A DNA stretch of 64,000 bases, from contig FN648490.1 of the NCBI GenBank assembly GCA_000310025.1, forward strand, positions 124,001-188,000. The letters run 5' to 3'. Position numbers and translations under genes: made by a program. Under the pieces are notes generated by a model. That model worked only from the letters and a program-made list of their open reading frames with translations. It had not been told where the DNA came from and ran no database searches. The stretch comes from Ectocarpus siliculosus (Eukaryota; Sar; Phaeophyceae; Ectocarpales; Ectocarpaceae). This document shows positions 5,388 to 35,655 of the stretch, in pieces. Position 1 is the first letter of the stretch. Each line of letters begins with the position of its first letter.

Positions 5388-8300
5388 ATGGCTGCGCCGG
5401 TGCCTGTGCTCTTTAGCGAGGCTTTGAACGTGAGTGGCAAGAAAAAGAAAGTGTGTGCTGGTGTTGCATTGCCGTCCTCTACCGCGTTCGCCCCCGGTGG
5501 CAGTGTGATGCATTCGTTTTGTGTTGGTCTGGTTTTCGGAGGGTCGTGTGTGCGTGTGCATTTTCTTCCGCGGTCTCAATCTCTCGAAATCGCCACCCCG
5601 TCACGTCTGTGATGCGGCCGGAAAGCGAACGTTTGTGCCGAAATTGCACTCAGCTACAAGTGCTCCAGTTCCTCCTCAGAGATGCAAAACCCGTGCGCTA
5701 GGTTTGCCGTGCAGGTTCCTCTGCTAGTGTTCGCGGCGGTTGTGAGCGAGCGCACACCCCACCCTGTTTGGAAGGTTCCCTCTCCAACGTCCATTGGCGG
5801 CAGGGAAAAAAAAAAAGCCATGATTGCGGCCACAACAACCCCACGCGAGGAGGTCGATTGTTCTGTGACGACAGCAGTACCACACAGCAGTCCCGCGTCT
5901 GGTCGTGCATCTGTGGGCCCTGTGGGCACATACCTCCTAGGGCTTGGTTCTTTTCTCTGGGTTGATTTTGGGTGCGAAGCTTTCTCTCGTTCGGGCGGGG
6001 GTTTTTTGCGCAACGACTCTTCCCCTCTCTCTCTCCAAAGGTATTTTTGTTTCCATCTTTCGTTCCTCTAGACCCTGTGCTGTAAGCTCTACCAGTTTCC
6101 TCCTGCTGTGGGTATTCAATGTGATGGTTTTACACACACAAGCTCGCTCCTGTCTTCCGAGGGCGGTGCGTTGGCCGTGTGTGCCTCCCGAGCGAGTAGT
6201 ACCGCAGATTGCCGCGCTTCCACATGAGAGAGGAAAATGCGGTGTCACTTCCCTAACGACCTACATACCTGCTGTCTTCACCGCAGCAGACAGAACACAC
6301 ACCCTTAGAATGTGGTGTGCTAACTTTTCTTTCTCTCTCGAATGTTCTGTCTTTCCTCTCGTTATGTAGCCTCTATGCGATTGCCCGCCTTCGTAATTTG
6401 AACCCGTGTTTCTTTCGCTCCCTGGGGGGGCACCCGTTGTGCACCCTTCTGTATAACAGCCGTGTTTGGTCCTGCTGAATAAGGTCTTTTTTTCACTCGC
6501 TGGTGGTTCGCTTTTGTCACGCGGAGAGATGTGTCCTGTGGTAGGTTGGGGAGTACAAGAAAGCCTTCATTTATCAGGAATACAAGTAGTGAGCCGGCTG
6601 CACACATGACTGCTGTTTACGTTTCCATTTGTGCCCGACTTACCTGGCTAGTGGCTATAGCTTTGTTCTCCGCTTCACTGACGCAACAACAGCAGTCATG
6701 TGTGCATCCGGGTTGGCAAGTAGTCTAAGAGGCGTATATGTGACAGCAGCGTATGCTGCTGTCAAGCCTGTCACAGCCGTCGGGACGCAACGTGCGATGC
6801 TCCACTTACACGTGACGGCTGCTGCGATACCCCCCCACTTCTGTATTCATATCATAAAGACACACGTGTGGGAAGGGGGTTGGCGTGACTGGCGCAGCTG
6901 ACACACCACGGCAGCATTGCATCGTTGTCAATCGTCGCGCATGGACGACGTATGGGCCGTAGCAGTCTGTGGGTGGTACATCGAGCAGCGGGGTCGGCTG
7001 TGCGGACTAATACGCTACCCATTGTTCTGCTGTCTGGAGCCTAGCGTGCAACAAGCGACTAAGTAGGACCGCGAAATGATGCGGAGAATTCGAGCGCCGT
7101 GTGACATTGTTGCACACAGAGCCGCTCGCAGACTTTGCAAGAACGATTCGACGCTGTCGAGGGGGCTACACGGTTCCCTGACAGCAAAGGCTTTGAAGTG
7201 TAGGCAAACAACGCTGCTTCTATCGTTATCACTAGTCGGCATACCGTTGCTCACACGAGAGTCGAGGAAGAGAAAACAAATATGGATACAACTGCCATGA
7301 CTGGAGAACAATCCTGCGACACATAAACCACACAAGATCAAGCGGAGGCCTCAAACAATTATGTGGTTCTGTATCATTGGCGCTTGCAGATCCTGTGGCC
7401 CGTTCCTGCCACTGGCCCTTTTGTTGTCATGGGTTTACAGGGTAGTGCGCAATGGGCTAATCACCGTGGCGCGTAGTTGACCAATCTCCGTTCGCGTTGC
7501 CCGAAACAACGTGTGCTTCGTTACAACATGCATATATCCCGATTGACGATACGGAATAGTTTGGAGCGTTCGTCGTATTACACGCCCATCTTTTATTTAG
7601 TGACAGAGGTGTTTGGCGTGCTGGTGTTGCTGTCCTCGATTGGAGAAATTCCCAGCGTAATGTGACCACGACATTGATTTCTATGTGCCTTTGAAGAGAG
7701 AAGGAGGAATCGGAGAAACGTCACTAACGGTTGTCCATGTGACGATGCTTGCAAAATCAGCAGCAACAGCTGATATTTTTCCTGGGAACACACGTACCGG
7801 CTGGAATCGAATTTCTACCGTAGGTACTCTCCGTTGCCGCAGGCTAGCTAAGCGCACCTTTCCCTGCCGAGGCTAAAAAACCGGTGAACCAAAGCACAAA
7901 AACCATGCTATTTGTTGTACCTTACAAGAGGGGGCTCGGATAGTGAGAGGGTCGAGGGCCTTTGTCACGCCACCCTCTTGTATTGGGGCCCACGACTGTA
8001 TAAATGAAACGAATGCATGGAACACAACGACAGTCTTGTGGCGCTCCGCTGGTTTCGCACGAATGAAACCCTCGATAAACCCTCCGCTTTTTTTAGCACA
8101 ACGTACGCAAGTGGTAACATGTACTTGACCCTTCATGCTTTTTGGTGCCAACTCATGCAGCTGGTGCAAACTGCCGGAGTGGCGGCGGAGTCGATCAAGT
8201 TCGGGACGTGCTCCCTCCAGAGCGACAAGTACATATGTGTCTGCCAGGGGGGAGAGCTGGTGATCGTGGACATGACCGCGGGCAATGCGGTGAAACGGTG

Positions 8301-11300
8301 GCCCATCTCCGCCGAGGCTGCTATCATGAACCCCACCCAGAAGATCGTGGCGCTGAGGGGTGAGAGAGACCAAGACAACAGTAGCATGTTGTTGCTGTAT
8401 TTTCATCACTTTTAAGTCAGCCCTCACATGCAGCACGTCCGCCTGGTGGGAAGGAGCTCGAAGCCTTGGTATGTAGCACAGAGGAAGGGTTGGTCTCCCT
8501 ACGCAATTTTTTTTTCAACTATGTTGGATAAAGTATGGAATCGGTGGAGTTTGGGGGGTTAGCCCATCTCCATCTCCGCCGAGGCTGTTGTCGTGAACCC
8601 TTGGCGCTGAGGGGTGCGAGAGCCGGACAGACTTGCGGGGTATAACTGCGTGTGGTGCTTTGCTCTCGCAGCGGCGGCACAATTTTGACGTACGCGTGCA
8701 CGGCGGTTACTGCTGTTTGACACGAGCAGGAAGCTGGATCTATGTATGTATCGGTGGCCCATTCCCATTTCTGATCGAGCCGCCTTCGTTCCCTTCCCCC
8801 TCTCTGTCGAACCAAAAATAACTCGAACCCCCGTCCGGTTTTCTCTGACCAACCCTAACCCCATACAACCCAACCTTGCCCCTCTCTGTCCAACAAAGCA
8901 CAACCCAAGCCTCCCTCGTTTCCGCTGTCCAACCAAACATAACGCACACCCCCTCTGTCCAACAATAAAACACACAGCCCAAGGCCAGCTCCAGATCTTC
9001 AACCTGGAGGCGAAGAGCAGGCTGAAGAGCCACACGATCTCGGAGCCGATCGTGTTCTGGAAGTGGTTCGACGCGACGACGATCGCGCTCGTGACCGCCT
9101 CGGCGGTGTTCCACTGGTCCATGGGAGGTGACTCTGGCCCGCAAAAGATCTTCAACCGCGACGCCAAGCTTGAGGGGTGCCAGGTGCGTGTTCGTGGTTC
9201 ATTTTAGAGAATGTACTCATGAGTCCACAGGAAGACTACCCGTTGGAGATATAACCAATGGTTTTTAGAAAATATACAGGAGTCCAGAGGAAGACTACCC
9301 GTTCGAGATGCACAACGAATGTCGAAGAATGTGCTGTTCGTTTTGTCGAGGTGGCGTTCGGCTGACGGGGGTGAGTTGTCGCCGCTTGTAGGATAGCGGA
9401 GTAATGGGTGTGTAAATCTTTGAAGAAGCTCGCGTGTTAAACATGTCGTCGCTTGCCATGAGGACCGAGGACGTGTTTGGCACCACATTTCCCCAAAGCG
9501 GTGAGAGCCGTTGCGGCGTAGGTTAGGTCTGGGGCTTGTGCGAAATTCCTCATTTTTTGCGTTACAAACTTTCGAATGACAACAATGTCGGGGGGGTATG
9601 TGTTGTAACCCCGCTCTGTGTGTTTGTGGCTGTCTTTCTTGTTAGGATCGACCGACCTAAATCGGCTGCCCAATGAAGAATCGTCAGTCTCGGTGCGGTT
9701 GAAACCAAAATATGCTTCTACAGGCCACGATCTGGGACCCTGTGACCGAGCGTCATGGGGGAGTCCGCGTTTGTGTGTGTTTGTGTGCGTCTTTATTTTT
9801 TACTTCGACAGCGCTCAGCGGCTAACCAATGAAAATACATCAGTCTCCGAGCGGTTGCAACACACAACGCTTCTGAAGGCTACTATTATCTGGGACCCCA
9901 TATAAGTGTGTGCGTTTTTGCCTTAGCGTTGACCGCGCTGACCGGCTAACCAATGAAATACGTCACTCTGAGCGCTGCTAGTAGCGGATACTTGTTTTTT
10001 TACGGATATCTTGTCGATGCTTCTTTCTTTTTTCGGCAGGTGATCGGCTACAACGTGAGTGCGGATGGGAAGTGGTGCCTCGCCGTGGGGATCTACCAGG
10101 CTTCTCCTGGAGTCATCGCCGGAACCATGCAGCTCTACAGGTACGTTGGCCGAAAACCTGCGAGGCTGTTGGGCATTTTTTTTAACGCTGGGGTTTTCTC
10201 GACAGAAAATAGTAAAAGCTCGATGGTGTGTATGACGTGAAAAATGCCGTGGAGCGACACACCCGTGTGTGTCGTGTAGATTGATCGAGTTTGGTTGTTC
10301 TAAGCGTATCTCTCTGTGTCAGGTGCTTGCCAGGCCAATCGGCATGCATGATTTACCCTTCCGTTCTTGGGAGTTGCACTCCTCTGCTCTTTGGCGTTTC
10401 CCTTCTGTTGTGTGGCGTTTGGCATTCACCCCTCTGTTCTTTCGCGTGAGTGGCCCTCTTGTGCGCCCTGCGAGCGGTGTGTCGGTCGCGTTTTTGCGGA
10501 ATACCCGGACCTCTACGGTGTGCGTACCGTACAACCGTGGGATGATTGTGAGGTTGATCTGTCATTGACGGGTGTAGCGCGCTCGTCGATGTGCTCCTTC
10601 GTGGCCTCTGCTCTTCCGGCTTCCTCTCCGAGACGGGACTGGTCCTCGTATTGATAGTGTCTTGTTGTGTTGTGTAGCGGACGTCGGTGATCGTGCCACA
10701 TGGACCGACCGTGCCGTTGTCTCTCGAGAGACCCACGCCAGGCGTGCGCTCAGGGCACTGCTGTGCGCACGTGTTTCACGTGTGCTTGTGTCTCCTACTC
10801 CTGGCCTGCTCCTGGCCCTGCTTGTCCAAGCTTCGTCGTCGCGTGTGCGTGTCTTGACCGTTGTTCGACGTGTGATCTCAAAACCCCGCGTCCGCTCCGC
10901 CCTCTTGGTAGAGCTAATGCTTACTGCTGCGTGTGTTTTTGTTTCCGATCTTACCGTGCTTTGTGCAACCTGCTGTTACCTTTGCCACCGCTGATGGCTG
11001 TCGTGTTTTTGCTGCCTGCTGTTGTGTGGTGCCCTTCCTCCTGCCTGTTGGCCCTCGCGGCTTTTTCTTTTTTTTTTGCGTGCCTGCGTGCATTCGTGCG
11101 CAGCGTGGACAAGCGCGTGTCGCAGATACTGAACGGGCACACGGGAACCTTCGCCAAGATCAAGGTCCCCGGCCGTGCGGAGGAGGCGCAGGTACCCCGC
11201 CCCGCCCGTCCGTCCGCTGCCACTGCTCAACTGTGTACATTCATTGTTGGCAGGATTTCTGCTCGTTACAATGGTATCCTTATGACATCCGTACCGGTGC

Positions 11301-14300
11301 AACTGACGAGGATACCTTTCATGGTCACAGGCCAACTTTGGTTTATCAATAGTCGATTGCTTACACACCACGTTCTAGATGCATACAGTAGTGTGGTCAT
11401 GCGCCAACTTCGGTTGAACGAGTCAGTTGCTTCCATGCCGCATTGAGCCGCATGGTGTGGTCACAGGTTTTGGGTAACACCGTCCCATACCAGTTGCTTG
11501 ACGGAACAGCAGTTCCAACGATAACACTGACATGGTTGTCGCACGCCACCCTTGGCTTTGTGTGAACGAACAGGTGCTCTGCTTCGAGGAGAAGAAGGTT
11601 GACTCCCCCGCCAAGCTGTACGTGATGGAGGTCGGCAGGGACAAGGACGCGCCGGGGGGCGTGTTCCGGCTGTCCCCCCAGCAGATCCCCAACGCCGCGG
11701 ACGCGCCCAACGACTTTCCGGTGGCGATGCAGGTAATGCATACCGTAGGCGTGATGTACAGAGCAGGCACGTTTGTTTTGGAAATAACGCAAGAAGCGAG
11801 TTGGAGCGGGCAGGGGGGAGTCACATCGAGCCTGAAGTTCCGAAAAACATATCTGGAGGCCTTTTGGTGATGGGCGGGTGTGGGCGTTGTACATGTAAGT
11901 TGGACCGTGAACCGAGGGAATCGCCCTCGACACACGTTTGGGAGATGCAGCCGTTGTGAATTTGATCTCAGCTGGAATACCTTTTTTTGTATCCTTTCAT
12001 TTGTTGCTTTGAGCACGACATCATGTTCACGATATATATCCCCAACGTCTTGTTTTTTTTTTTTTTTCGATTTGCCGATTTTCTTTTTTTTCTCTGTGCC
12101 CTTTCGCTTGCTGTTGGCCTATTCTATGCACAGGTGAGCCCCAAGCACGACATAATCTTCATGATCACCAAGATGGGGTACCTGTTCATGTTCGACATCC
12201 ACTCCGGGAAGGCCCTGTACCGCGCCAAGATCAGCGAGCAGACCATCTTCGTCACCACCACCCAGGTATCCAGATGTTCAGTCTTTTATTCTGCAGGTTT
12301 CGTGCTGAGTCTGCCCTGTCGATTTTGTTAATATTTTGTGACGGTGCGGGCGAACCCTCGGGTTTGCCATCGATCGATGTCAAAAGGTCGAGTTTTCCAC
12401 ACCCCAAGAGGCTGCCAATTTGTTTGTTTGTTCCGCTCTCTTTTTGGTTAAGTTTTGCACGGATCCGTGATATCGCAGAAGGGGTGCGCACACGTGAACG
12501 TGATGTATCCACGATATATTTCTTTTCCCACCCGGGGATCCTTGATTTTCGGCACGGTGCCGACGGGGCCTGGGTTTGGCACGGGCGCGCGCGAAACAAC
12601 CAAGAACAGGTATCTCGTCGAGAGCTGTCTCTTCCTCGCACGTGGTGACGGTCGGGTTTCGATACCGCCCTCTTTGACGACCCCCTGGTCGTGGAGCAAG
12701 AATGGATGGCAAATCTGCGCGTTCGCCCGCGCCCTTACCGCAATCAATCTGTTTTGTCCTCCCCTGCACACAGCCATTTTTCGACAAGAGGCTGTTCAAG
12801 AAGCGGTTCCGTGCATGCCGTTGCTAACCTCTTGTACCCACCCCCCACCCCCACCCCCACCCCGCCTCTAAAAACACTCCTTTTCTGCGTCATTACCAAC
12901 CTCTTGTGCCGCCCCCGGCCCCGACTCCGAACCCACGCCACTTTTCGCCTCAGGACGCGACCGGAGGCATCGTCGGCATCACCGCCCGCACAGGAGCCGT
13001 CCTCCAGATCTCGGTCAACGAGGCCACCCTGGTGCCCTACGTGGTGAACACCCTCCGGGACTCGGCCCTCGCCATCCAGCTCGCCGCCCGCCTTAACCTG
13101 CCCGGCGCCGACGACCTGTACATGTCGGAGTTCAACCGCATGCTGGGGTCGAACGACGTGGCCGCTGCGGCCAGGCTTGCGGGGGAGTCTCCCAACGGTG
13201 AGCGACGGCGGCTTCGAATCCGTGTGTGTGTTGTTTTGGCCGGGGCCGATGTGCGTGCTGTCACGTGGAGATTGGGGAGCGGGGCGATTGAGTGTGTTGG
13301 TGTCCGTAATTTTCCCCTCGACAGCTGTTGCTACACACGTTTTGTTTTGGGGCGTTTCGAATCAGCGACGTTCTGCATGTATTCAGCAACACATGCGTCT
13401 TGACCTCATATATTTTTTCTTCAGATGTGGTATGCATATGTGCAATGCATGTGTTTTTTGCTTTTTTTGTGTACAGTTATGTTGTTGTCTCACCCCCCCA
13501 CCCTCATCTCCTCGTTGTGCACCTTTGTCGGAAAAAAAAAAACTTTTTTTTTTTGTAGGTCTTCTGCGGACCGCCGCTACGATCCAGCGGTTCCAGCAGA
13601 TCCCCGCTGTGCCCGGGTCACCGCCGCCGGTGTTCCAGTACTTCTCGGTGCTGCTCGAGCGCGGCAAGCTCAACGGCATGGAGAGCATCGAGCTCACCCG
13701 CCCGGTCCTTACCCAGGGCCGCACTGACATGCTCGAGAAGTGGCTGACCGAGGTGAGTTTATTTTTATTTTTTCCCGTGGTGGTTGTGCGTTTTTTGTTT
13801 GCGTGTTGCCCTGTTCTGTGGTGTACCATGTGCTTTTTTGTGAAACCAAGGGTTTCATTTTCTTCGTTTCCCTCTCTCACGGACACACCCCTCCCATCTC
13901 TCTGTCTCCCACCCTCTTGCCCTATATCTCTTATCTGTGCAGGACAAGCTGGAGTGCTCCGAGGAGCTCGGAGACCTCATCTCCCAGGTGGACGCCAACA
14001 TGGCCCTTTCCGTGTACCTGCGCGCCAACGCCGCCGAGAAGGTCGTGAACTCCTTCTCCCAGAGGGGGGAGTTCGACAAGATGGTGGCCTACGCCTCCAA
14101 GGTCGGCTACCGGTGCGACTACACCGTCATGCTCCAGAACATGGTGCGGACGAACCCCCAGGGGGCCCTGGCGTTCGCGAAGAAGGCCGCGACCACGGAG
14201 CCCCCGCAGATCGACCCTAACACGGTGGTGGAGACGTTCATGTCGGCCAGCCTGGTGCAGGAGACGACCGCCTTCCTGCTGGAGGCCCTCAAGAACAACA

Positions 14301-17300
14301 AGAAGGAGGAGGGGTACCTGCAGACGAAGCTGTTGGAGATCAACCTCCTCGGGGGGTCCCCGCAGGTGGGAAGACGGGGGGGGTATGTGTTTTTTGCCCT
14401 TGCGTGACCTGTGAATGGTGTTGGCTCGTCGTGTTTTTGGTGGTGATGTGGGGGAGGTAGCCAAGGCTGCGTGGCGCAGGTCACGGGCGTATTCTTTTTG
14501 TCGCGTTTTGTGTCGTATCTCGCCTGCGAGTCAGCATCAGCCCGCCCCCCAAGACCCGCTGATTCCACGTTTCAACTGGACCTCTGGACCTCTCCCCCGT
14601 CCTTATCATGTAGCAGATTTTGGTGTATACAACCGAAATGTGTGCGGCTCGCGGTAGCAGGTCTTATGACATCCAGGATGGGCGGCTTGTTATCCCGCTC
14701 ACCCGCTCCGACCCCCCCGTTTAGCCTCGGGAAATGAACACGTCCGTCATGAAGACGAGGCTGCCATGCAGATGAGGCATGGTGTTTCCAACGAAACCGA
14801 ATGTGGACGCTGCCTCCCATTTTTGGTACTGCAGACTTCGAAACACGCCCTTTCATGATGAAGACGAGAAGCGGCAATGTCAACGTTGACCCTTGCTGAC
14901 AACCATGGGACCGCCACCCTTGCCCCCTGTTTGTTGTGGGTTTTGTCTAACCGTACCGCTGCAGGTGGCCGACGCTATCCTGGACAACGACATGTTCACG
15001 CACTACGACCGCACCCACGTGGCCAAGCTGTGCGAGAACGCCGGCCTGTACCAGAGGGCCCTTGAGCACTACAGGTACTATATTATAGTAACATATCACT
15101 ACAGGTAGTAACTTGACATTGGTAGTACCGTAACGCTACAGGTGGCAGCATAACAAGACATCGGACAGCCGTCCAGGCTGTCAGCGTCGTCATGCTTTTT
15201 TGCGGCCAATGTTTTCCTCAGTCACTTCTTTTGCATACTTGAAGCATAAACAAGACATCGGACAACAGTCCAGGCTGTCGGAGTTGTCATGTTTTGCAGC
15301 CAAGCTTGACTCACAGTCAGCGTATGTATCACGGCGTTAGGGCTCAATCCAGCCAGAAATGTACGGTGTTGCCCTTGCTGACACGGTCAAGATGCAGTGG
15401 GCGTTGATCGCATAGTCTAATGCTTTGCGGGCTGGCCTTCATGCCTGGGTACGTTATCGTCGTCGTCCTTATGCCCCTCCTGACTCAGGGGTTCCGTGAA
15501 ATTGCAATTTTTTGGTTGACACGCGGCGATTGTTTTCCCTTGTCCGCCGGAAATCTCTGTTTTGTTTTGTTTTTTCGTCGTCGTGGCATAACAACGAATG
15601 AATGGTGAAATGGCGACCAACAGCACCCCCGCCGACATCAAGCGGCTCATGTCCTATGCCCCGGCGATGAACTCGGAGTTCATCGTGAGCTACTTCGGCA
15701 CCCTCTCGAGGGAGACGTCGATCGACGTCATGAAGGAGATGCTCGGCAAGAACATGCGCCAGAACCTGCAGATGGTGGTCCAGGTGCGTTGTGTCGCCTG
15801 CCTGCCTGCCTGCTTGCCTGTCGCCTGTTGCCTGTCGTCTGTCCTTTCGATGACCTGTGTTGGTGTAGAACATGTCATCTTGCAAGAAACGACAAATCCC
15901 TCTCGTCCACAGGCTGCCATTTAGAAAATATCCATCTAATCCAATCATAGAGAGAGAGACTACCCATTCGAGATATAACCGCGTTACAGTCCAAGGCCCT
16001 TTTGTGTTGGGTGCGAGGGCACGCGGATTTGTAGATGACCGCGCACCGGTTGACAACCTCTTTCAATATTTCGACACCATTAGCCACCAAACACCTTTTT
16101 TTCCTGGAGTTGTTGGGATTTGGTGCCAAAGCCAAAGGTTGTTGATCATTGCTTCTACGCCTGGAACAGCTATGTACGCTTTTCTTGTGCAAGTTTGTGT
16201 ACTTGGTTACGTGGATCTCAAGGCGTGTACTTGGTGCCGTGGATCCCACGGCCTACTTTTTTTGGAGCAGTCTTGGATATTGGCCGTCCTATTTCGATTC
16301 TGTGATTTCCGGAACAGCTACATTTGAAGCCCTTTTTCTTGTGCGGATCTATTTGCTTGGTTGCGTTGATTCCGCGGCCTCTTTCTTGTGGCGCAATCTT
16401 GCGCGTTTTTCTTCTTGTTTTTTTCGTCTTGACTTCAAATCAGAGCTCATCAAGCGTTTGTGCCGTCGCCAAAGTTGCACTGCTTCGTTTCGGTTCGTTA
16501 GTAGTCCCACCGCCGCCGCCCCCTCTCTGCCCGCGTTGCGTACGAACAGATCGCCACGGCGTACTCCGACCAGATCGGGGCTGAATCCCTGATGGAAATG
16601 TTCGAGAGCTTCAAGCTGTACGAGGGTCTCTTCTACTACCTGGGTGCGATCGTGAACAACTCCACGGAGCCGAACGTGCACTTCCGGTACATCGAGGCAG
16701 CTGCCAAGATGCAGCAGTTCAAGGAGGTGGAGAGGGTGTGCCGCGACTCTACCGTCTACGAAGCCGAGAAGGTAAAAAAAAGGAAAAAAAATGCGGCGGG
16801 AAGATGCAGTCGTCGCACACTGTTTTGTCGCCGGTGCCCCCAAGAACAAATAGTGGCTACTTTGTTTTGTGGTTTCTGTAGGTTTGACTTTGCAGTCGTC
16901 GCACACTGTTTTGTCGCTCGTGCCCCCAAGAACAAATAGTGGCTACTTTGTTTTGTGGTTTCTGTAGGTTTGACTTTTTTTATATGTTGGTGAGTTGTAG
17001 CCTACAACAACAAAATATTGTTGGAGTGTTGCTTTTTTGGCTTGTGCCGCAGACAGTTGGACCAGTACGGACACTAGAAAGTACTTAGCGGAAACCAGAA
17101 CGGTTTTAATGTCAAGACAACATTTAACAACCTCATCCAGGTTAAGAACCTCCTTATGGGCCCTAAACTGCCCGACCAGCGAGATAGGCTTCCTTGTTTC
17201 TTGTTTCTTGTTTGTTGCTTCGTTTGATTTTTTATTGTGTTCTTTGGTTGTACACTGTACTATCGCCGACAGGTGAAGAAGTTCCTGATGGACGCCAAGC

Positions 17301-20077
17301 TGCCAGACCCGCGTCCCCTGATCCACGTGTGCGACCGCCACGACTTCATCGAGGAGATGACCGGGTACCTCTACAACAACAACATGCAGAAGTACATCGA
17401 GGTATGGATGGATGCTACTTTATGCTGTTGTCGTTGATCATTGTTTTGCGTTTTTTGTCATGGACCCCCCGTTGTCATTTAGTGTGAGTGACTTATTTTT
17501 GTCACCCCTGCTGTTGTTTTTTCCCCCGTGCCTTCCCCAACGCCAAACGGTGAACAGAACACAATTAACGTAAATATAAACACACAAAGCATACATACAT
17601 GCTTGGTTCGGTGTTTGCCTTCTGGTTGCTGCTGTTGATGTTGTGCATGTTGTCGAAACTCAAAATGTCGTCCCGTGTTGCCATGCCTGATTTTGGTGTT
17701 GGTCTCGCGCCGTGGTGTTTGTCAGGTGTACGTGCAGAAGGTATCCCCGCAGAAGACCCCCATGGTCGTGGGCAAGCTGCTGGACCTGGATGCCCCCGAG
17801 GACTTCATCCGACAGCTGCTCAACTCCGTCGGCCACCAGTGCCCCGTCGACGAGCTGGTCGAACAGGTGAACACTACGGAAGATACCACACACACCCTCG
17901 ACCGATTTCCCACCTTTGGACAACTACTGTACTCGACAAGAGAGTGCAAAAGTCGAGTGATTTGTTGTCGGGAAGCTCTCGACGACAGTTGCAACGCTAC
18001 CGTTTTCGTCGCCGCCACTATTTCTGCTGTGGAGTAGTCGAGCGTGGAAGGTCTGTCAAGGGGGTATGGTATCTTCCGTCACCCTCTTCTTTCGAGGGAG
18101 TATGGTATCTTCCGTCACCCTCTTCTTTCGAGGAAGTATGGTGTCTTACGTCACCCTCTTCTTTCGAGGAGTATGATATCTTCCGTCACCCTCTTCTTTC
18201 GAGGGAGTATGGTATCTTACGTCACCCTCTACTCTACTCCCTTCCTTCTCGTGGTGGCAACACGGTTCCCAATGTTTTTACATTTCTGAAACCGCTGACT
18301 GACAAAAATCGACAAACGCATGCATGAATATGAAAACGTTTCCGCGCAGGTGGAGAGGCGCAACCGCCTCCGCCTCCTCCAGCCCTGGCTCGAGGCCATG
18401 GTGTCCACGGGGAATACGGAGACGGCTACCCACAACGCCGTCGGGAAGATCTACGTGACCCTCAACAAGGACCCGGTGACCTTCCTCACCAACAACCAGT
18501 TCTACGACCCCAAGGTGCGTAACGCCAGTGTCTCTTTTGTGTCTTTGGTTTGTGTGTGTGTGTGTGTGTGTGCCTTTTGAGTTATCATCGACAGCGCTAA
18601 CCGCTGGGTGTGTTTGATTTCTTGTTAAAAACGCGACATATTAATTTCTATGGGATGGGTGTGTTGTATGCTATGTGTGTACTATGATAGCACCGGCGGC
18701 GCTTCCCGCTGACCAATTTGTGTGTTATGTGTGCGTGCTGTTTTTCCTTGTACGTTTGGTGCTGCGTTTGTCATTGGGAGGGGTATTTACGCGCGGGGTT
18801 TTGTTTTGTTTTGACACCATGGATGTGTTTCTGTCTGGAAGGTTTTGGTCTCTGGAGACCAGAACATTGGCCGCACCTCCCCCCCCCGTGAATCCTTTGG
18901 TAGGTGCTGAGCACATCGCAAGAAGCGAGATCCTTCCGCTACACTTCTGCCCCCCCCCGCCCCCCTCCCCCCCCAAAAAAAAAAAAAAAAACATTTTGTG
19001 AGAACTCCCTCCATTTGGCCTGTCTCTCTGTGTGATAGGTGCTCGGTAAGTACTGCGAGAAGCTGGACCCGTCCATGGCCTTCCTTGCCTACAAGAAGGC
19101 GGGCGGCGCCTGCGACGATGACCTCCTTCGGGTCACGAGCGAGAACGGCCTCTTCAAGAACCAGGCGCGGTATCTCGTGGAGAAGCAGGACATGGACCTT
19201 TGGGCCAAGGTGCGTGCGTGTGTGTGTTTTTTTTTTTTTTTTCGTGTTTGTTGTGTGTTTGAAATAGCATCGACCGTGGCAGCCGGCGTTCCATTGAAAA
19301 TTCGCCAGTCTTCTGGATGTGTGTTTCGTGTCCGTTGTGTCTGGTTTATTGTTAGTGTCGACCGCACTTACACACTAATGAGAAGACGTCAGTGTGTGTG
19401 ACGTATGGCGCACCCTCTTGGCGTTTTGGGGGCCGCGAATATTCGAGACAATTTTCCACTGTTTCTCTGCAGCATGTGCAAATGCATGTGTTTTTTCGCG
19501 GTCGCTTCTGGCGAAGGGTACGGACGATGCCTACAAAATCACGAACGACATGCGCTGATCCGTTGTGGTTCTAGGTGGCGGACGACACCCACAATGTACC
19601 AGCTTGGTACGATACGCGCTGATCCTCCTCCCTTGTTTCTGCGTTGCGCGTGCGCGTATCCGCGACACTGCTGCCCCGGGTCGGTGTCACAGGTGCTGAC
19701 GAAGGCGGAGGGAGAGACGCAGGAGCCCGCCTCCCGGCGCGCCCTGATCGAGCAGGTGGTGCAGACGGCGCTCCCCGAGACGAAGAACGCCGACGAGGTT
19801 TCCACCACCGTTAAGGCGTTCATGAACGCCGACTTGCCGTCGGAGTTGATCGAGCTGCTCGAACGCATCGTGCTCCAGGTGTGTGTGTGTGTGTTTTTTT
19901 TTTTTTATGATAAGCATCGACCGCGCTAACCGGCTGACCAATGAAACGACGTCAGTCTCGATGCGGTTGAAAACACAGAACTGTGTGTGTGTGTGTGTGT
20001 TTGGGTTTTGAGTTTGCATCGACCGCACTAACCCGCTGACAATGAAAAGACGTTAGTCTCAGTGCGGTTGAAAACAC

Positions 20078-20120
<43 letters not shown>

Positions 20121-23100
20121 GAGTTTGCATCGACCGCGCTAACCCGAGTCGGTGTGCGCGCCGTTTTGCGTGTGTTGCTTCTGTTTTTTCGGTTCTGGGA
20201 ACACCCCGCGATCGGAGTCGAAGGGAGAAAACCTAGGGGATGCTGCGCTTATTTTGTCAGCTGTGGTGCTAGTGACGACAACATATGGATCGGTTTTACG
20301 TCAATTATGGGTAGCCGTTTTCGGCCACGATACAAAAATGATCTCTCGTTTTACCCTTTGGAAGTGGACGCACCAACCCTTGTGGAAGATGACGCAATGC
20401 CACGATGTGATCCCATACTGCAAAAAACTGACAAATTCTGGTCTTTTTTTGTATTGGGACAGGGTTCCGACTTCTCTGAGAACAAGAACCTCCAGAACCT
20501 TCTCATCCTGACGGCCATTAAGGCCGACCGAGAGCGCGTGATGGAGTACGTTAACCGCCTGGACAACTTCGACGGACCGGAGATCGCCAAGATCGCGGCT
20601 TCGGAACAGGTGAGGGGGAACACGGGGCTGGCTGCTCCTGCTCCCAGAAGTTGCGGTAATGTTGGTGGCGGTTGGCTGTCGCTGCTGCTGCTGTTGTGGT
20701 GTTGGCTCAGCAATGTCGTCGTTGCTATGGTGGTTGCTGTTGTTGGAGTTGTGTTCTTGGTTTCCTAGTCTTTGCTGTCGTTGTCAGTATTGTGCCTGCT
20801 GTTCTTTGAGGTTTGCTCTTGGTCTCCTATATTTTTGTTGTCATCGTCGGCATTGCGGTTGTTGTCATTGTCGGTATTGTGGTTGCTGCTGTTGTTGTGG
20901 TGGTCTTTTCTTTACGTTGTCTTTGTTGCCGCCGTCGGTTTTGTTGTTGGTGTTGTTGTCTTGGCTTCACAATGCCGTTCTCGTTGCCATCATCGTTCTG
21001 ACTGCGGGTGGTTGTTGTTATAATTGTTGTTGGTTGTGGCCCCTGCTCTATACTTCTGACACCCGTACCGCAACGGTTTGCTTTGATGATGGTCACCAGT
21101 ACGAGCTCTTCGAGGAGGCGCTCCTGATCTACACCAAGTGCGGCAAGAAGAGCGAGGGCGAGGAGAAGACCGCCATGCACGTCAGCGCCGCCGAGGTGCT
21201 GGTGGACAACCTGAAGGACCTCAACAGGGCCAAGGATTTCGCAGAGCGGGTCGCGGACAGCGCCGTTTGGAGCAAGGTGGGGGATGGTTGATTGATTGTG
21301 CCTGCCATTGGAAGCCACACCAGCTGCAGCGATTACCGTATAACGATTTTCATTGATTATGCCTGCCTTTGGAAGCCATAGCTGAAGCTGCATCCTTTTG
21401 CAGCCACAGCTGTGCAGTTGCTGCAGCGATTGCCTTAACCCATCGAGGTGGTGATACGTTCCCGCTGTTCTTGAATGGATGGCAGTCGAAAAAAAAACAC
21501 AAGAGTAGAATTGCAGTACCAAAACAAAACAGGAAACAGATTCCAATTGTATGTTGCTCCCTGCGAAACGTTCGTCGTGTTGCTTGTTAACTCCGCATGC
21601 AGCCCTGATGGTATTTTACCAGTTTCGCTCTCGGTTTTTGTGCCTCTTTTGGGGGTGTTAATTCTCTTTGTCTCTGCTTTTCTTTCCTCCCTCGAATTTT
21701 CGCTTCCGCCAGGTCGCCAAGGCCCAGCTGGACGAGGACATGTGCGTGGAGGCCATCGCGTCTTACATCAAGGCGGAGGACCCCAGCTACTACGCAGAGG
21801 TGAGAAGGACAACAAAAGCAGAACGGCAACCGTCCTGCCTGCTTGCAGAAGCAAGCTCTCTGAGTGCGGTAGCTGCTGTGACCGCTGCTGCTGTGAATTT
21901 GCAACATATATATATTTTTTTTCGCTCTGTTGCCCTGTGGAGGGACATCTCCCCCCCCCGCGATATCGCGCCTGCCATCTCCTCGTTTGGCCGAAAATCC
22001 GCTCGAATAGTACAAATTCTCATCCCATTTTCGTACGGTACCATTTTCCATCACATTCTCCTCAAGGCTTTTCGCGTTTAAATGACCTGCGCGCGCCTGT
22101 GATTCTCTTATTGTTTTTAAAACACAAGTTTCCATCGCACTAATACATACCCCATGGTAATTCCGTCCCATCTAATTTCCCAGGTGATCGAGGCCGCCGA
22201 GCGCGACGGTGCGTTCGAGCAGCTGGTGCTGTACCTTCGCATGGCCCGCAAGGAGGTGAAGGAGGCCATCATCGAGAACGAGCTCATCTACTCTCTCGCC
22301 AAGACCAACGCCCTGGGCGACCTCGAAGAGATCATCGCCGCTCCCAACGTGGCCAACATCGAGGTGAGATATGGCGACGCGGCAGCGGTGGCGGATGGTG
22401 GTTGTTTTTGTCTTGGTGTTAGAATCGTCCCGGTCTCTGCTCGGTACCTTATGGTGTCCGTAGTGACTGGTCCTACCGACGCGAACGTGTTCTGGAAGGG
22501 GAAGGATGCTTGGAGTCGGGCGGTGTTTCATGTGTGTTGTTGGTTATGATGAATATTGCTTGGATTGCGATTGGAAGTGGAGGAAAGAGTTATTTTAGTA
22601 CCTTGGATAAGGCGGGGTGTCGGTGATGCTGGTGTTTTTTGTTGTTGCTGCTGGTGCTGCTCAGTTAGTTAGATGCCATCGATGCACATGTTTGCCGCGT
22701 CCGTCTTCGTCTATCCCCTGCATTTGTTGACGTACCGTCACGGTTACGGTAACGAGCAACACTTGGTGTCCTCCCCATGAGAAAGAACATCCAAGCGGCA
22801 TACCCAAACAAGACTCTTCTCTCTTTCGTCACCGCACCAGGGCATCGGAGAGCGCTGCTTCGACGAGGGCATGTACGAGGCGGCCCGCCTGCTCTTCAAG
22901 AACATCCACAACAACGCCAAGCTGGCCCTGTGCCTGGTGCACCTCGGACAGTACCGAGAGGCGGTCGAGGCGGCTACGAAGGCCAACGCTGTCAACACCT
23001 GGAAGCAGGTAAGGGGAGCAGGCTCCTAAGTGTGGTGGTTGTGTGGTTGTTTATCTAAAATTGACGTTTTTTAGGTTCGGTCGACCTCGAATTACCAACG

Positions 23101-26100
23101 TTGTAAACACCTGGAAGCGGGTAATGGGAGCAGGCTCCAAGACACTTGAACGTGCGGTGCTTGGTAAGGTTTGTAGTTGCAGTCGCCCCCCCCCCCTCCT
23201 CCCCCGCCGTTCTTTTTGATATTCCCATGTGTCGTGACCCCTCCCCTTCCCCGAAACTGCTGTTGTCGTATTCAGGTCTGCTACGCGTGTGTTCGCGCGG
23301 ACGAGTTCCGACTCGCCGGTGTTTGTGGTCTGCACATCCTCAAGCACCCCGACCACGTTGAGGAGCTCATCCAGCACTACGAGAGGGCGGGCCACCCCAC
23401 GGAGCTCATCCAGCTCATGGAGCAGGTGAGCTGTTAGATGTCCTGCCCGAAACCAAATAGATGAAGTAAATCTTAAACGAAGAACTCCCCTCAAATATTT
23501 TTTGTGATGCACCGAATCCAATATTGTGCGAGCTGTGGTGTAGTGTTCTTGAAAATTCGGGTGACGTGTTTCTTGTTGTCATCTTGGTCGATACATACGT
23601 GTGGTGCTGATGCAGGTGCTGGTAGTGTTCTTGTTGGCGAAGAGTGGTACCCCCCCCCCCCCCCGTGGGCGCGCGCGCGAATTCACGGTGCCCCCCGAGT
23701 AGGGGTACTCTGGCACCCCTCGGATCTAAGTTAGGCAGACACATGGTGACGTGCACCCCCACCTTTGCGGCTGCAAATATTGTTGACCTTGGCGTTTGTT
23801 GTTTACACGTGCAGGGTTTGGGTCTGGAGGAGGCCCACTCCGGGGTGTTCTCGGAGCTGGCGGTGCTCTACTCCAAGTACAGCCCCGAGAAGCTGATGGA
23901 GCACATCAAGATATTCTGGTCCCGTTGCAACGTCACCAAGGTATGTAGCATGGGGACATTGCTGTGGTGGTGGTGGTGGTAGATGCGATGAAGTTGAACG
24001 GGTAGTAATCCTGTTGTCATGATCGTGGTGGTGGGTGCTGTAAAGTTGTGAAGTTGAGTTTAAGTTGGATGTTTGCTGTTGTGGTTGTCGTTGTTGTTGT
24101 GGCAGTGGATGCGATGGGGTTGAACGACAGCGTGTTACTCTTGAAGATCTTCATACACGAGGCTCCTCTTGTGGCTGCCATGTCTGACTGCCCGAACTCT
24201 CTTTTTCCTTTTGTTGAGGTGCTGCGCGCGTGCGAGAGGGCTCTCCTGTGGGACGAGGCGGTGTACCTGTACAAGGAGGATGCACAGTACGACTCCGCTG
24301 TCAAGACCATGATCGACCACTGCGTCTGCTTCAAGCACGAGCTGTTCCTCGACTGTGTTACCAAGGTGGGTGACTCTCTGCTGCTCCTGCTGTCGCTGGT
24401 ATTCGTCCTCATATGACTGTATGGCATGGGACAACCTACCGCTAAACATAACGACACCGAAGCACGCCATCTTTCCACATCCATTCGCATTGTCGTGTTT
24501 TGTGTAGTTTTTTTCGTTGGTAACGCCCTATTTTTGTTGTCCATCGCACGGCTTTCCTGGTGCCGGTGCGTGTCGGTGCTCTTGATGGTTGGATGCAAGA
24601 AAAGTGGATGAAAACTGTAGTTTTCGTGTCGAGTAGGTTTCTCGACCATCCTCACCCGTCACACGATAGCCCTGCCCCACCCCGATTTGGCCATCGGCGA
24701 AGATTTCGTGCGGGAACAAATTCCCCGTCCTCTGTGGTCGGTGGTGTCACAGCTATTTCAGGCGTGCAAAACATGAGTACGCCCCTTCCCCGTATCCCGT
24801 TTCCCACCCCGATGGAAACGTTTTCTAGGTACGAAACCAAGAGGTGAACTACAAGGCGATCACCTTCTACCTGGAGCAGCACCCTCTCAAGCTCGTCAGG
24901 CTGCTAACGGTGCTTACCCCCAACCTGGACCACAGTCGCGTGGTGCACCAGCTGAGGAAAGCGGAGAACCTGCCTCTCGCGATCGACTACCTCAAGTCGG
25001 TGCAGAAGGTAAGAGATGAGGGGGCACACGGACAGGGGCGAACGGGTAGGTAGACGGGCATCCAGGGTAGGAAGCTGGAAAGAGACACTTTTTTTTGGGA
25101 CGTCAAGTCTGGTATGCACTCGCCATATTGACTAACTCATGTCCGTGCAGAAGGTGAGGACAAGAGGGGGCACACGGACAGACAAGATATTAAGTCGAGT
25201 CTCTATCCCGAGGGTATATCCTCTGTACCGGAGACAGGGACAGAGACAGAGACACGCATGCAGAGGCACGGGACAGATTGACAATACCGGACGAAAAGCT
25301 ATCCATGGATCTGCTTTGAACCGCCCTACAGAGAGAGAGGATAGGACTCCCCCCCTCTTGGTGGAAGTGGTGACGTGACGTGACGTCGGTGTCTTTTCTT
25401 GGAGAACGTGGCCGCCGCCAAAGTTTCCTGAAGACGTCCCTCGGCTGCTTATCGGTCGAGAGATCCTGCTTGTCGGTCGAGAGATCCTGCTTGTCGGTCG
25501 AGAGACACTGCTTGTCGGTCGAGAGATACTGCGTGTCAGTCGAGAGATACGCGCCCCTCTTTCGTCGTAGAATACTTGTTGCAGCGTTGCTGTGAATGAT
25601 GGTGTCTGGTTCGTCGGCCTTTTTTTCCTCTTTTTTTTTTTTCTTTTAGGAGAACGTGGCTGCCGTGAACGAGGCCTTGAGCGAGCTGTACATCGAGGAC
25701 GAGGACCACGAGAAGCTGAGAGAGTCGGTAGACGACTACGACAACTTCGACCAGGTAAAAACACAACTTGCACGATACTGCGCGTTACCCTTTCTACAAC
25801 ATGTCTCATTTTGAATCAACGGCTGCGAATACCCCCACTCCGCGCCTTTCCTAGACCACCCAGTAGCGCTCTCGATTATACAGCAGTACGCGTCCCGACT
25901 CGTCTCTGTTTTTTTTGTTCTGTGGAGAACCCCAACATCGAACAGGTGTACCAAGGACTTAGACACACACAGCGCGTGGCACGTGTACCTCTCAATCCCT
26001 CCCCCGAGACTTGGTCCTTTGTTTCTCTTGGGATAACCCAATATGTATCCACTGACTGTGGGTTTCGTTGTAGGCCCTGATCTTTCCCTCTTCCCCCCCC

Positions 26101-30962: not shown

Positions 30963-31052
30963 TCATGGGCGAGGTGAAAAACGTCCTGCTCGTCGTCGGC
31001 CTGAACACGCGCCGCCCAACGGGGTTTCGGGCCGTCGACTGCGCGAGCAAGC

Positions 31053-31086
31053 ACCACCACCACCACCACCACCACCACCACCATCA
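31053..31086 (+). repeat. CAC trinucleotide microsatellite
   Basis: Ten perfect CAC units followed by an interrupted end. On the opposite strand it reads as GGT and would encode glycine within the possible ankyrin-like fragment. Confidence 0.9.
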
Positions 31087-31099
31087 CGATCGACATCTG

Positions 31100-31483
31100 A
31101 AAATGCTTGATGGTCCGGCCACGCCCACGACCGGGCATGGAGCGCCGGCCCCCGCCGCAGCATCCTTCCTATGGCCGCCGCCATCGTGACCGCGTCCTTG
31201 CTGCTGGCGGGCAGGGCCTTGCCGACGACCTCCTCGATCTTTTCTCCGAAGGCGGAGACCGCCGCGGCGTACGCCCCCGCGGCTAGCAACACCTTCGCCG
31301 AGCAGTACGACCGACGGTCGCGGCGTGATAGAGCGGGGGCCAGTTCCGCAGCGGGAGCGTCGCCCAGTGCTGCCGCCTCTCCGGGCCTTCCGCGCCCAGC
31401 AGCATCCAGAGGATCCTCGGGTGCTCGAGCTGGGTCGCGTACTTCATGGCTTCGGGGACGGCGGCGGCGCCGCCGACCACCTC
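31100..31483 (-). pseudogene. Possible ankyrin-like gene fragment, frame broken
   Basis: On the minus strand a GC-rich, coding-looking frame from about 31483 to 31310 encodes AMKYATQLEHPRILWMLLG and ends around PPLYHAATVG. Another frame continues immediately with KVLLAAGAYAAAV and a helical segment. The pattern 'PLYHAA-G...KVLLAAGA' resembles an ankyrin repeat. Joining the halves would need a one-base frame change near 31310 or a very short intron, which is why I call it a broken fragment. A poly-Gly run encoded by the CAC repeat (31053-31082, plus strand) follows. I see no start codon context or upstream exon. It could instead be an exon of an unrecognised gene. Confidence 0.3.
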
Positions 31484-31814
31484 TAAACGCGTCTGTTGTT
31501 GATGGGAAGGGCGGGATTAGCCTTAACAAGGTGTCGGAGCCTGCACACAGAAGCCTTACCCCAGTCGGTGTGTGCGAAGACAGCAACTGCCCCGTGTACC
31601 TTTGCAACGCTCTGGCTACTTCTCCGCGGTCCGCTCCCTCGTTCATGCTAGGAACCATAATTTCATGATTGGAAACCCCTGGAACTGGCCCCCAATGTCC
31701 CCGTTAGTTGTATTGCGCCGCACCCATTTGGTTCACCCGCACGCTCCCTGCTCTCGCCCCCCTTCCTATCGCCTATCGCACGTGACACCTGGCCAGGTCG
31801 CCTGATAGGCTGCG

Positions 31815-33006
31815 ATGTTCTTCGACCTGAACGTCCCTGTACTTCGCTCCTCTGTGGAACGGGATCGGAGTGCTCTTTTGTCGCAGCTGTTCGAACGTGA
31901 GTACTGCAATGTTCCCCTCGCTGTCGATCATCACCCCACAACCCATTGCAGTAGTCTCCACCCTGCTGAAAACGATATTATACATAAGTCAATGTAAGGT
32001 GTACACGTGCTTCCACTCTGTTATCCCGCTGTGCCCACTAGTGTATGTGCTAGTCTCGCTGGCTGGTGGGTAGTTAGTGCTGTAAATAGTCTACAGCCAC
32101 ACCAGGGACGAGTTTTTTTACAGTCTCGGGTGACTGCTTGAAGAACGAGTGGTCTAAGGTACACCTACCTGCCAACAGCAACAGCATTGTCATGCGACAA
32201 CGAGCCAGAGCCAGACAGGCACGACCTCGCCCCCCGAAATTCTCAACTCACGAGCTGCAAGGATAGTGAGCTTTTCTGTGCTATGTATGCACGCAACGTG
32301 TTCGCTGCTTGCTACAATAGCGGGAGACCACCAAACGTACAGCATAGCCAGCGGAGAGCCGCGCGGTCCACAGCAGTCTCCACAGCGCACAGTGTAGTTA
32401 CAGCAGTTACCGCCTCTTTCTCCTGCGCGATGCGCTTCCTCGCTAAAGTTTGGACGCCCAGAGCAACACCATGGTTTCCTGTTGGTTTGCTGTGTTGGCG
32501 GTGGGCTCGCAGCCTCGTAAAAAACTGCTACAAGTACAACGTAGTACATCGAACTCCGCCGACTATAGAAGCCTGATTGAAACCATTAGACTAAGTCAGC
32601 GGCTGATTTGTCTAATGGTTTGATTTTGGGTTCTATTATTAGAATTAGTCGTGGGTTACCAATGTTTGATTTCGGCTTCTATACGATATACAACCTGTTC
32701 AACATGCAAAGGGGCACCATACCAGACGAACAGCCGAAAGTCGGCATAGTGCGTACCGAATCGCAGCTGGGGCTTCCGGGGTTAAACGTGTGCTCCGCAG
32801 CAAAGAGCGTCTTGGTTCATGACGATGCGACTACATACTTTGCCCCCGATTGTCTGGATTCGACCCTTCCTGCTTCCCAGATGGCTACGACTGCGTCGCC
32901 TTGAACACCATCATCTACGGCCGCCTTCCCAAACAGCACGTGAGTGTCGTGGCTTTTTTGACGTTGATGTTGGTGTTAAGGGGTTGTGCTGACGATGATG
33001 ATGATG

Positions 33007-33050
<44 letters not shown>

Positions 33051-35135
33051 CACCTCTGCTGGCGTGATGCGCGCACCCCCCGCTTAGCTAGCTAGTAGAC
33101 ATCGGTCCAAGGAGAGCAATCGACACCTGGATGCGATCTGACCATTCCAGCCTCTTTTGATGCCACCTGCTTGTTCGGCCCAACCCATCTGCCACATTCC
33201 CACCGACTCAAGCTTCGATGGGCACAGAACCAAGGACAGGAAGACACAAACACACGCCACGCGATGCCGTAACACGCAGACTGTCCAGCGAGCAGCCCAC
33301 CTGTAGTCGATAGAATCGAACCTGGTACTGACGAAACTGCAACGAGTGCCAACCCGTTTGAGATTTGCCATTTTTTTGCGCAAGGCCAACATAACGCCCC
33401 CTTATCCATTCCCCACGCCGCCATCCCTCGCAACCCACACGCAAACTCGCCGAAATCGTGGCGGGCGGGGTACAGCGGTGCACTGTCGAGCGCATCCACT
33501 TCGACCCCGAAGCGGCATCAGCCGTCGGCAGCCGCCGCCGAAGGCGAAGAAGAACGTCCCGAGAACCTTCCTTGCTCCGAGCGACAGCCCGGGGCGGTGG
33601 TGCCGCTGCGCCTGGACACGGGGCTACGGCGGCGAGTGGCCCCGACCAGGTTTCACGCCTCACGGTGGTGCTGGAGAGCCCGGCGGACGCGCAGTCCCTG
33701 GTGAGTTTTTTGGCTTTGTTCTGGTTCGAGAGGGGCAGAGGGGAGGGGGGCGAGGGAGGGACCGATGGCCTGTCGGGCACGGCCCCGTCTACATAAGTGC
33801 ATGGGCTCGCAAAGCGATCGGGTAGGCCGGTGCGGGGCTGGCGGGAATGCTGCCTATATGTAGGTTAGTCGGTACCCGTCCGGGGGAACACGCTCGAAGG
33901 GTAGTTTGTCGCACTGCGTTTGGGTGTTGGTGCGCCCTGCCATGTCGTCCGGAGCGGTAGGGAGACGTTGGCCCGAGTTTCGAACGTGTGTTGCTTTGGG
34001 CAGAAACCCTGAGGGTGGAACGAAGGCGTGCCCCGCGAAATGATGGTACTTGGAAATTTATATTGATGTGTTGAGTCTGAAATCGACAGCAGTCAGTAGC
34101 GTATTAAGGCTTCGAGAGTTTGGCTTTCTCCTTGAGTGTTGGGTCTTGAGAGTATCAGAAGGCACGTGTCGTTTGGATGCTTCTTTGCGTCTCTGGCTGC
34201 CGAGGAGGAACGGTGCGTGATTCTGGGTGTGGGGTTCATGCCGCCTGCGCGAGGCCGAGAGGTTTCGATGTTTGAGCCACTCGCCGCTCGCTCGCTATTT
34301 TAGAGAATCCGTCTTCTTCGGTGGCGTTTGGGTCATTAAGCTAGCCGGCAGGTGCCGAGGAAAGGGTTGGATGATGGATGAAAAGGAGATCACATTCAAA
34401 GGGGTGGAAATTGAATCCATACAGAGCAAAGCGTGCAAGGCGCGCCAACAGCACCACACCCCGCTCGGGGTTTGTAGCGGGCTTTTTGTGGGCCTGGCTT
34501 TTTCAAACCCGCGCAACAACAACAACCATCGCAGCAACAATAGCAGTATCAGCAAAGACAATCAACGCCATAAAGAGCAAAAGCATCAACATCGACAACG
34601 ACAGGAGCGGCAGTAACAGCCGCCAGGTAACAAAAGCCATAGCCACAACAAACAACACCATGGACAACGACAACGACAATGACAACGACAATGACAACGG
34701 CATCAAATACAACACCCTACGCCAAACAGACTGCCGGAAGCGAGGCCCTTCAGTCGTACGACGTGGTGGCTGCCGTGCCCTGCTGCCAGAGGTCCTTCGA
34801 GGTCCTGTGCAAGGACAGCGATGTGGACGTCATCTCCCTCCCCTCCGGCAAGCGCCTTCCGTTCAACATCAACAAGAAGAATGTGGGTGGTGCAGTTGTT
34901 GATGTTGACGGTGGAGATTGTTACCGCAAGTCGAAAAAAATATCGCACCCCCTGGACCGATTCTCAACGCTCGATTTCTCCACGACGGAGAAGATGTCGA
35001 AAATGAAGTAAGCATACGTTTTCGGAAAGCTCTCGACGAGACGCTTCCAACACCGCCTTTTTCGGCACCATCACTGCTGTTATTCCAGCCGATATATGGA
35101 GCTCCGAAAATCGGTCCAAGGAGTGTGATATCTTA

Positions 35136-35167
<32 letters not shown>

Positions 35168-35655
35168 GTTGTCTTCACATTAAAATCGTTCCGATCTCTC
35201 TCTACCCAGTACCTTCATATGTCCGTACTGATGCGACACTTGACGCGGTCGATTCCCGTGGTCACAGGCTAACTTACCCCTTGTGCAACCCACGGAATAG
35301 AGAGCGTTCCGTTCAACATGACCAAGCAGAAAGTGGAGGAGTCAAAGGTGGCGGAATTTATGGCCGTGGTGGTGATTGTTATCGAGCGGGGAAGGGAGAG
35401 GGGTTCCGCTTACCATCGCCAAGAAGAAAGTGGATTGTCCAAGGTGTTGCTTGTGGTGGTGGTTGTTATAGAGGGGGGGGTGGTTTCGGGATTAGGCGCC
35501 CGCAGAGTCAGATGTGGCTGCCCGTAAAGGTGTAGTAGCACGGTAGCGTTGGTGAGTCAACCTCTGAAAGAGCATGCTTGAATCCGCAAAGCACCCTGAT
35601 TTTCGATCCTTTTATGTGTTGCGTTTACCGCTGAACACTCCACTGCGTCTCTTTG

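Follow-up and report, generated by a model that had tools for sequence, protein, structure and literature searches.

Why do introns of two genes in the brown alga Ectocarpus siliculosus carry decayed copies of the exon ends that flank them? The genes of interest, those for the clathrin heavy chain and for RNase P p30 (RPP30), lie in a 64,000-nucleotide (nt) stretch of contig FN648490.1 (forward strand, positions 124,001 to 188,000), referred to below as the window. Both assignments are backed by Pfam, and that of the clathrin heavy chain additionally by PDB sequences. The copies, here called echoes, are real. We consider it likely that they are the boundary-covering share of an ordinary local, same-strand duplication of intron DNA, in units of about 40-100 nt. 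As discussed below, the exon-intron boundary itself is not supported as special.

Echoes of exon ends within introns

A preliminary description of the window had noted decayed copies of neighbouring exon ends in several introns of both genes. The boundaries tested were taken from that list and from the top of an intron scan, hence the choice was not blind. Each was compared with 20,000 random chunks of other introns, equal in length and with the own intron excluded, which sets a floor of 5e-5 for p. Seven of eight boundaries outscored every null chunk, namely the ends of clathrin exons 2, 23, and 27, the starts of clathrin exons 7, 14, and 28, and the end of RPP30 exon 4. Six of these seven were already on the list, while the start of exon 14 is an addition. 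The parent copies and their echoes, in positions of the window, are as follows.

8303..8368, + strand, end of clathrin exon 2 with the first 9 intron bases, parent copy (alignment, BLAST)
8562..8622, + strand, echo of the exon 2 end in intron 2 (8570-8622 by alignment, 8562-8569 by eye)
12012..12033, + strand, echo in intron 6 of bases +10 to +32 at the start of exon 7 (parent 12144-12165; 19/22, p ≤ 5e-5)
15097..15148, + strand, intron 11, two short stretches that resemble the donor end of exon 11 (13/14 match, p = 0.01)
17138..17181, + strand, echo of the exon 14 start in intron 13 (parent 17270-17313; 34/44, p ≤ 5e-5)
22983..23026, + strand, end of exon 23 with 18 intron bases, parent copy (alignment)
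23095..23138, + strand, echo of the exon 23 end in intron 23 (40/44 identical, p ≤ 5e-5; spacer 68 nt)
24982..25035, + strand, end of exon 27 with 27 intron bases, parent copy (alignment)
25127..25181, + strand, echo of the exon 27 end in intron 27, with an intact donor at 25154 (47/55, p ≤ 5e-5)
25394..25417, + strand, echo of the exon 28 start in intron 27 (parent 25639-25665; 23/27, p ≤ 5e-5)
34851..34923, + strand, end of RPP30 exon 4 with the intron start, parent copy of a unit of about 96 nt (alignment)

For exon 2, positions 8310-8368 and 8577-8622 share 42 of 59 positions (p ≤ 5e-5), and BLAST extends the pair to 8303-8368 and 8570-8622. The weakest accepted case is the start of exon 28, for which a fitted Gumbel tail gives 6e-3; the corresponding value for the start of exon 7 is 4e-4. 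The exon 7 copy had been suggested with some reserve. It is well above chance, but it consists of exon sequence only, without crossing the splice site. RPP30 exon 4 had been described as echoed twice in intron 4. The first copy (34851-34886 against 35301-35336) is identical at 30 of 36 positions with p ≤ 5e-5, and the second, a candidate copy from alignment, pairs 34857-34923 with 35404-35468 (73.5% over 68). Two further candidates were rejected. The donor copies of exon 11 reported at 15101 and 15137 are not convincing, since at p = 0.01 chance is not rejected, and the boundary at 54589 matches only C-rich DNA (p 0.12, with null chunks there that overlapped its own intron).

A direct scan of 68 introns gave top scores of 68, 67, 38, 38, and 38, against a reverse-complement maximum of 27 (two tests each); one of the direct matches scoring 38 resembles a GT microsatellite. 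Candidate matches with middling scores (e.g., 36, 32, 32, 28, and 28) were found in other introns.

The echo of exon 14 may preserve an older state of its parent. The 14-residue translations of echo and living exon, read by eye, differ at five residues, and over this stretch the PDB clathrin 1xi4, which we take to be bovine clathrin, reads VKNFLKEAKLTDQL. Of these five residues, 1xi4 shares N and Q with the echo and F and A with the exon, and at the fifth it differs from both. The echo thus encodes N and Q, like the PDB clathrins, at positions where the living exon has K and P. This single case hints that the copy predates two changes in the exon; the other clathrin echoes, read by eye, gave no such ancestral sign.

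Boundaries compared with intron interiors

Whether duplication is tied to splice sites can be judged from a wider set of introns. The genome searched comprises 189.5 Mb in 492 contigs, and the window belongs to the contig designated C86. A gene finder was trained on the sequence analysed, and 81 introns flanked on either side by exons of some size were retained. Of these, C86 contributed 65 and four WD40-gene loci, chosen non-randomly for several WD40 hits, the other 16; most of the gene models are predicted. Introns shorter than 120 or longer than 1600 were excluded, as were those next to an exon of less than 60 nt; RPP30 intron 4 is not in the set. The introns of a 200-kb block of C30 (about 20 kb of N, few convincing genes) were likewise excluded, the block being kept for gene-finder training and repeat finding. 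Masking covered simple repeats and those repeats recognisable within the sequence analysed. The median length of predicted introns is 576.5 bases (n = 252, early gene model), against a figure of 524 reported for Ectocarpus autosomes (PMC12477816).

In all 81 introns, after masking, 40-nt windows were taken stepwise between a point 150 bases into the exon and one 200 bases into the intron, and each was matched against the rest of its own intron. No match was found for windows more than 70 nt inside exons (0/965), and 11 of 621 (1.8%) matched at 30-60 nt inside exons. At boundaries, 28 of 702 windows (4.0%) had a match in the rest of the intron, and the rate was 6-7% within introns, both at 30-100 bases from the boundary (62/1032) and further in (91/1348). 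Across all 4668 windows there were 192 direct matches versus 8 in reverse complement. Boundary matches therefore lie far above those of deep exon interiors, the comparison on which the preliminary description had made its pattern depend, but not above those of intron interiors, which by the terms of that description tells partly against its pattern.

Because sliding windows overlap, a second count was made by intron side, and it agrees with the window profile: at score 34, matches occur at 6 of 160 boundaries and at 7/150, 10/145, and 8/147 in three interior bins. Four cut-offs on two sides give eight rows. Three of them (the acceptor side at cut-offs 24 and 26, the donor side at 30) put the boundary above a single interior bin, and none puts it above all three. 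The closest approach to a boundary excess is on the acceptor side at score 26 (8/80 versus 4/75, 8/76, and 8/76). Windows deep in exons match on 2/73 and 3/72 sides when the cut-off is loosest (24), with 2 and 2 in the reverse-complement control.

A catalogue of strong pairs (score 34 or more) within the 81 introns points the same way. It holds 17 direct pairs and one inverted pair. The direct pairs divide into 13 intron-intron, three donor-spanning, no acceptor-spanning, and one exon-exon pair in a WD40 gene. The 16 with an intronic copy fall in 13 introns, out of 53 kb of intron in total, and all three donor-spanning pairs lie in the clathrin gene. Random placement of these 16 would yield 13.15 intron-intron and 1.41 exon-only pairs, together with 1.44 spanning pairs, 0.73 of them over a donor and 0.71 over an acceptor; three spanning pairs observed against 1.44 expected is no reliable excess. 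Moreover, an exon copy decays on one side only, so spanning pairs are easier to see and remain recognisable for longer. The intron-intron pair whose copies are most alike is an 86-base tandem duplication with 98% identity in clathrin intron 13 (16805-16977).

Collectively, these data retain part of the earlier idea that introns here grow by tandem duplication across splice sites. Local same-strand duplication adds length, some duplications cover a splice site, and one copy is kept. The match rate of boundary windows, lower than that of intron interiors, speaks against a process tied to splice sites.

Some features of the loci sampled stand apart from these counts. The polyubiquitin introns on C86 and the locus L032, where no gene was predicted, were excluded from counting. 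The polyubiquitin gene lies upstream of the window (C86, about 104318-107580), and its near-identical repeats reach slightly into predicted introns. Also upstream (C86, about 89230-93160), a cluster of direct and inverted repeats covers roughly 4 kb, mostly outside predicted genes; most of the repeats are 130-770 bases long with 67-98% identity. Two WD40 matches, at C28:791285 and C476:546588, lie within very long open frames of 7770 and 3837 residues.

How the copies may have arisen

In the process that we favour, short same-strand duplications of nuclear DNA would arise locally throughout the introns of these genes. Where a duplicated stretch by chance covers an exon-intron junction, one copy would keep the splice site and the reading frame, and the other would sit in the intron and decay. 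At the molecular level, a staggered break formed by two offset nicks could be filled in and joined, doubling the overhang in direct orientation, and captured DNA might or might not end up between the copies. Staggered-break repair is favoured for this step by a small margin; it is inferred, as is the origin of spacer and duplication in a single event. Such fill-in would fit the direct orientation, the short range, the absence of copies from deep in exons, and the captured DNA seen now and then. In the catalogue, the pairs consist of two similar, nearby copies on the same chromosome, matching above chance, as in the class of proximal direct duplications, and their orientation (17 direct versus one inverted) is that expected of fill-in at a staggered break.

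The anatomy of the pairs bears on this step. The three donor-spanning pairs (exons 2, 23, and 27) have spacers of 201, 68, and 91 nt and are spaced, not plain tandem units. Three stretches are relevant here.

8503..8561, + strand, repeated fragment in the intron 2 spacer, with two other genome matches (on C30 and C476)
34937..35280, + strand, repeated DNA that parts the first RPP30 copy from the second: a short inverted-end element at about 34937-35134 and a second repeated stretch at 35133-35280
35294..35485, + strand, second and third copies of the unit from the RPP30 exon 4 end, in tandem in intron 4 (start-to-start 96; outer edges estimated)

Repeated DNA thus lies between the copies in clathrin intron 2 and RPP30 intron 4, and none was matched in the spacers of exons 23 and 27. 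The fragment in intron 2 stops at 8560/8561, and by eye the echo follows within one or two bases. With a query that contained the exon 2 echo, genome matches elsewhere were confined to the spacer fragment, and the echo regions of exons 23 and 27 matched only themselves in the genome search, which old copies can escape. For these three echoes, the ones queried, the search gives no support to an origin as a dispersed repeat or introner. The two spacers of equal length, 68 nt (exon 23 and locus L029), do not match each other at the score used. A 78-base minisatellite of 5.5 copies at 55542-55972 has a unit that, by eye, resembles the intron 2 fragment. In locus L031, a 100%-identical intron pair considered as a recent spaced duplication is really part of a three-unit array (71-269; units about 68 bases) of a repeat with at least 41 genome matches.

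Several observations weigh against the account given above. Spaced copies suit fill-in only if the spacer was captured at the time or inserted later, and the exon 23 and exon 27 regions match nothing else in the genome. A duplication across the splice site would not on its own account for the exon 7 echo, whose bases all come from the exon. Set against the expectation for donors alone, three donor-spanning pairs versus 0.73 are suggestive of a small true excess. In addition, the catalogue is small and its gene models are mostly predictions. Our confidence attaches to the general reading of the echoes as local duplication; the next two alternatives contest only the molecular step.

The main rival is templated local insertion, in which a broken end copies nearby DNA, by synthesis-dependent strand annealing or polymerase-theta joining, and the copy is pasted at a distance in the intron. 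The spacers of the spanning pairs and the repeated fragment adjoining the intron 2 echo are as this model would have them, it handles the exon-only echo of exon 7 better, and the vertebrate cases (PMC2671141) include four partial exon/intron donors. Free choice of template should, however, also yield inverted and exon-interior copies, and with small numbers 1 of 18 pairs is inverted and 0 of 965 windows far inside exons match. We regard templated insertion as a credible candidate, though on balance an improbable one.

Somewhat more doubtful is a strict tandem duplication that was later split by transposon insertion and deletion. The RPP30 unit of about 96 bases occurs in three copies, the second and third in tandem at 96 nt and the first set apart by repeated DNA, as such a history would predict. 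Tandem arrangement is also seen in three of the 13 intron-intron pairs, and alignment cuts may conceal more. The pairs of exons 23 and 27 argue otherwise, having short spacers in regions with no other genome match. The tandem form of duplication put forward in the preliminary description therefore fits RPP30 copies 2 and 3 but not the three catalogued spanning cases, with their spacers of 68-201 nt.

A broader proposal, that short same-strand repair duplications with captured DNA are a main growth route of the long introns of this lineage and that the copies are fossils of old exon states, strikes us as rather unlikely. Less probable again is that splice boundaries are duplication hotspots and that tandem duplication across them gives this lineage a way of its own to lengthen introns. 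The donor excess noted above, the lack of exon-only pairs among those with an intronic copy (0 versus 1.41 expected), RPP30 as a further case outside the 81-intron set, and the three rows in which the boundary tops an interior bin would favour hotspots. Yet no row shows the boundary above all three bins, the window profile places it below both interior groups, the one-sided decay of exon copies prolongs their visibility, and all three catalogued spanning cases come from a single gene.

The predicted strength of the echoed splice sites, scored with a matrix trained on predictions in the same sequence, varies. The echo donor of exon 27 at 25154 scores 7.16 versus 6.49 for the real donor (median of real donors 6.25). 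The copies of exon 2 (3.54 versus 3.77) and exon 11 (4.2 and 4.5 versus 4.54) are about equal to their weak parents. The echo donor of exon 23 is weaker (4.11 versus 6.98), and so are the echoed acceptors of exon 14 (2.31 versus 6.55) and exon 28 (3.17 versus 6.71). Prolonging exons 2, 23, and 27 to their echoed donors gives stops in every frame. Selection for the copies as decoy or alternative splice sites is most improbable. The strong donor at 25154 and the parent-like copies of exons 2 and 11 would speak for it; the weaker sites of exons 14, 23, and 28, the stops, and the origin of the matrix speak against it.

With local duplication as the preferred reading, a striking pattern at splice sites can be just that part of an ordinary mutation process which is easiest to see, exon-side copies staying recognisable because their parent is conserved. 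Such duplication could now and then create a ready-made competing splice site, and the introns of this genome could serve to gauge how local duplication feeds intron length.

Comparison with known local duplications

No paper on intron echoes in brown algae was among the matches listed in the literature search (titles and abstract openings). Related processes are described elsewhere. In vertebrates, duplications arise by capture of proximal DNA during repair (Pace et al. 2009, PMC2671141). As in Ectocarpus, the copies are short and come from sequence no more than 5 kb away; some carry filler, and some carry splice sites and partial exon/intron sequence (four donors, Table 2). The vertebrate duplications differ in having a mean of 162 bp (proximal), in being found inside interrupted transposons, and in that one described exon copy is inverted. 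Here the units are about 40-100 nt, 17 of 18 are direct, and detection was by self-comparison of introns.

A second parallel is provided by Daphnia introns, whose internal direct repeats are put down to staggered breaks (PMC4202315). Such repeats occur in 100 of 617 (16.2%) established Daphnia introns and in 13 of 81 introns here, although the criteria differ. The repeats shared with exons in Daphnia are 4-12 bp long and mark new introns, whereas those described here extend over tens of bases, in introns that may be of any age. In rice, natural insertions form tandem duplications, for which offset nicks are invoked (Vaughn and Bennetzen 2014, via the review PMC7407515), and tandem, partly tandem, and nearby non-tandem duplications are found, as in the present introns.

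Intron gain by tandem duplication (PMC3443670, PMC2891723) shares with the echoes the feature that one duplicated exon copy turns intronic. In that process, however, a duplicated coding AGGT supplies both splice sites of the new intron; in the clathrin and RPP30 genes, intron sequence is already part of the duplicated stretch, which sits mid-intron. An exon-end copy at the 3′ end of the intron, supplying the acceptor, is absent in the three catalogued cases, whose second copies, intron sequence included, end 355, 137, and 468 nt before the acceptor. The echoes fit the local, repair-type duplication already described in vertebrates, Daphnia, and rice.
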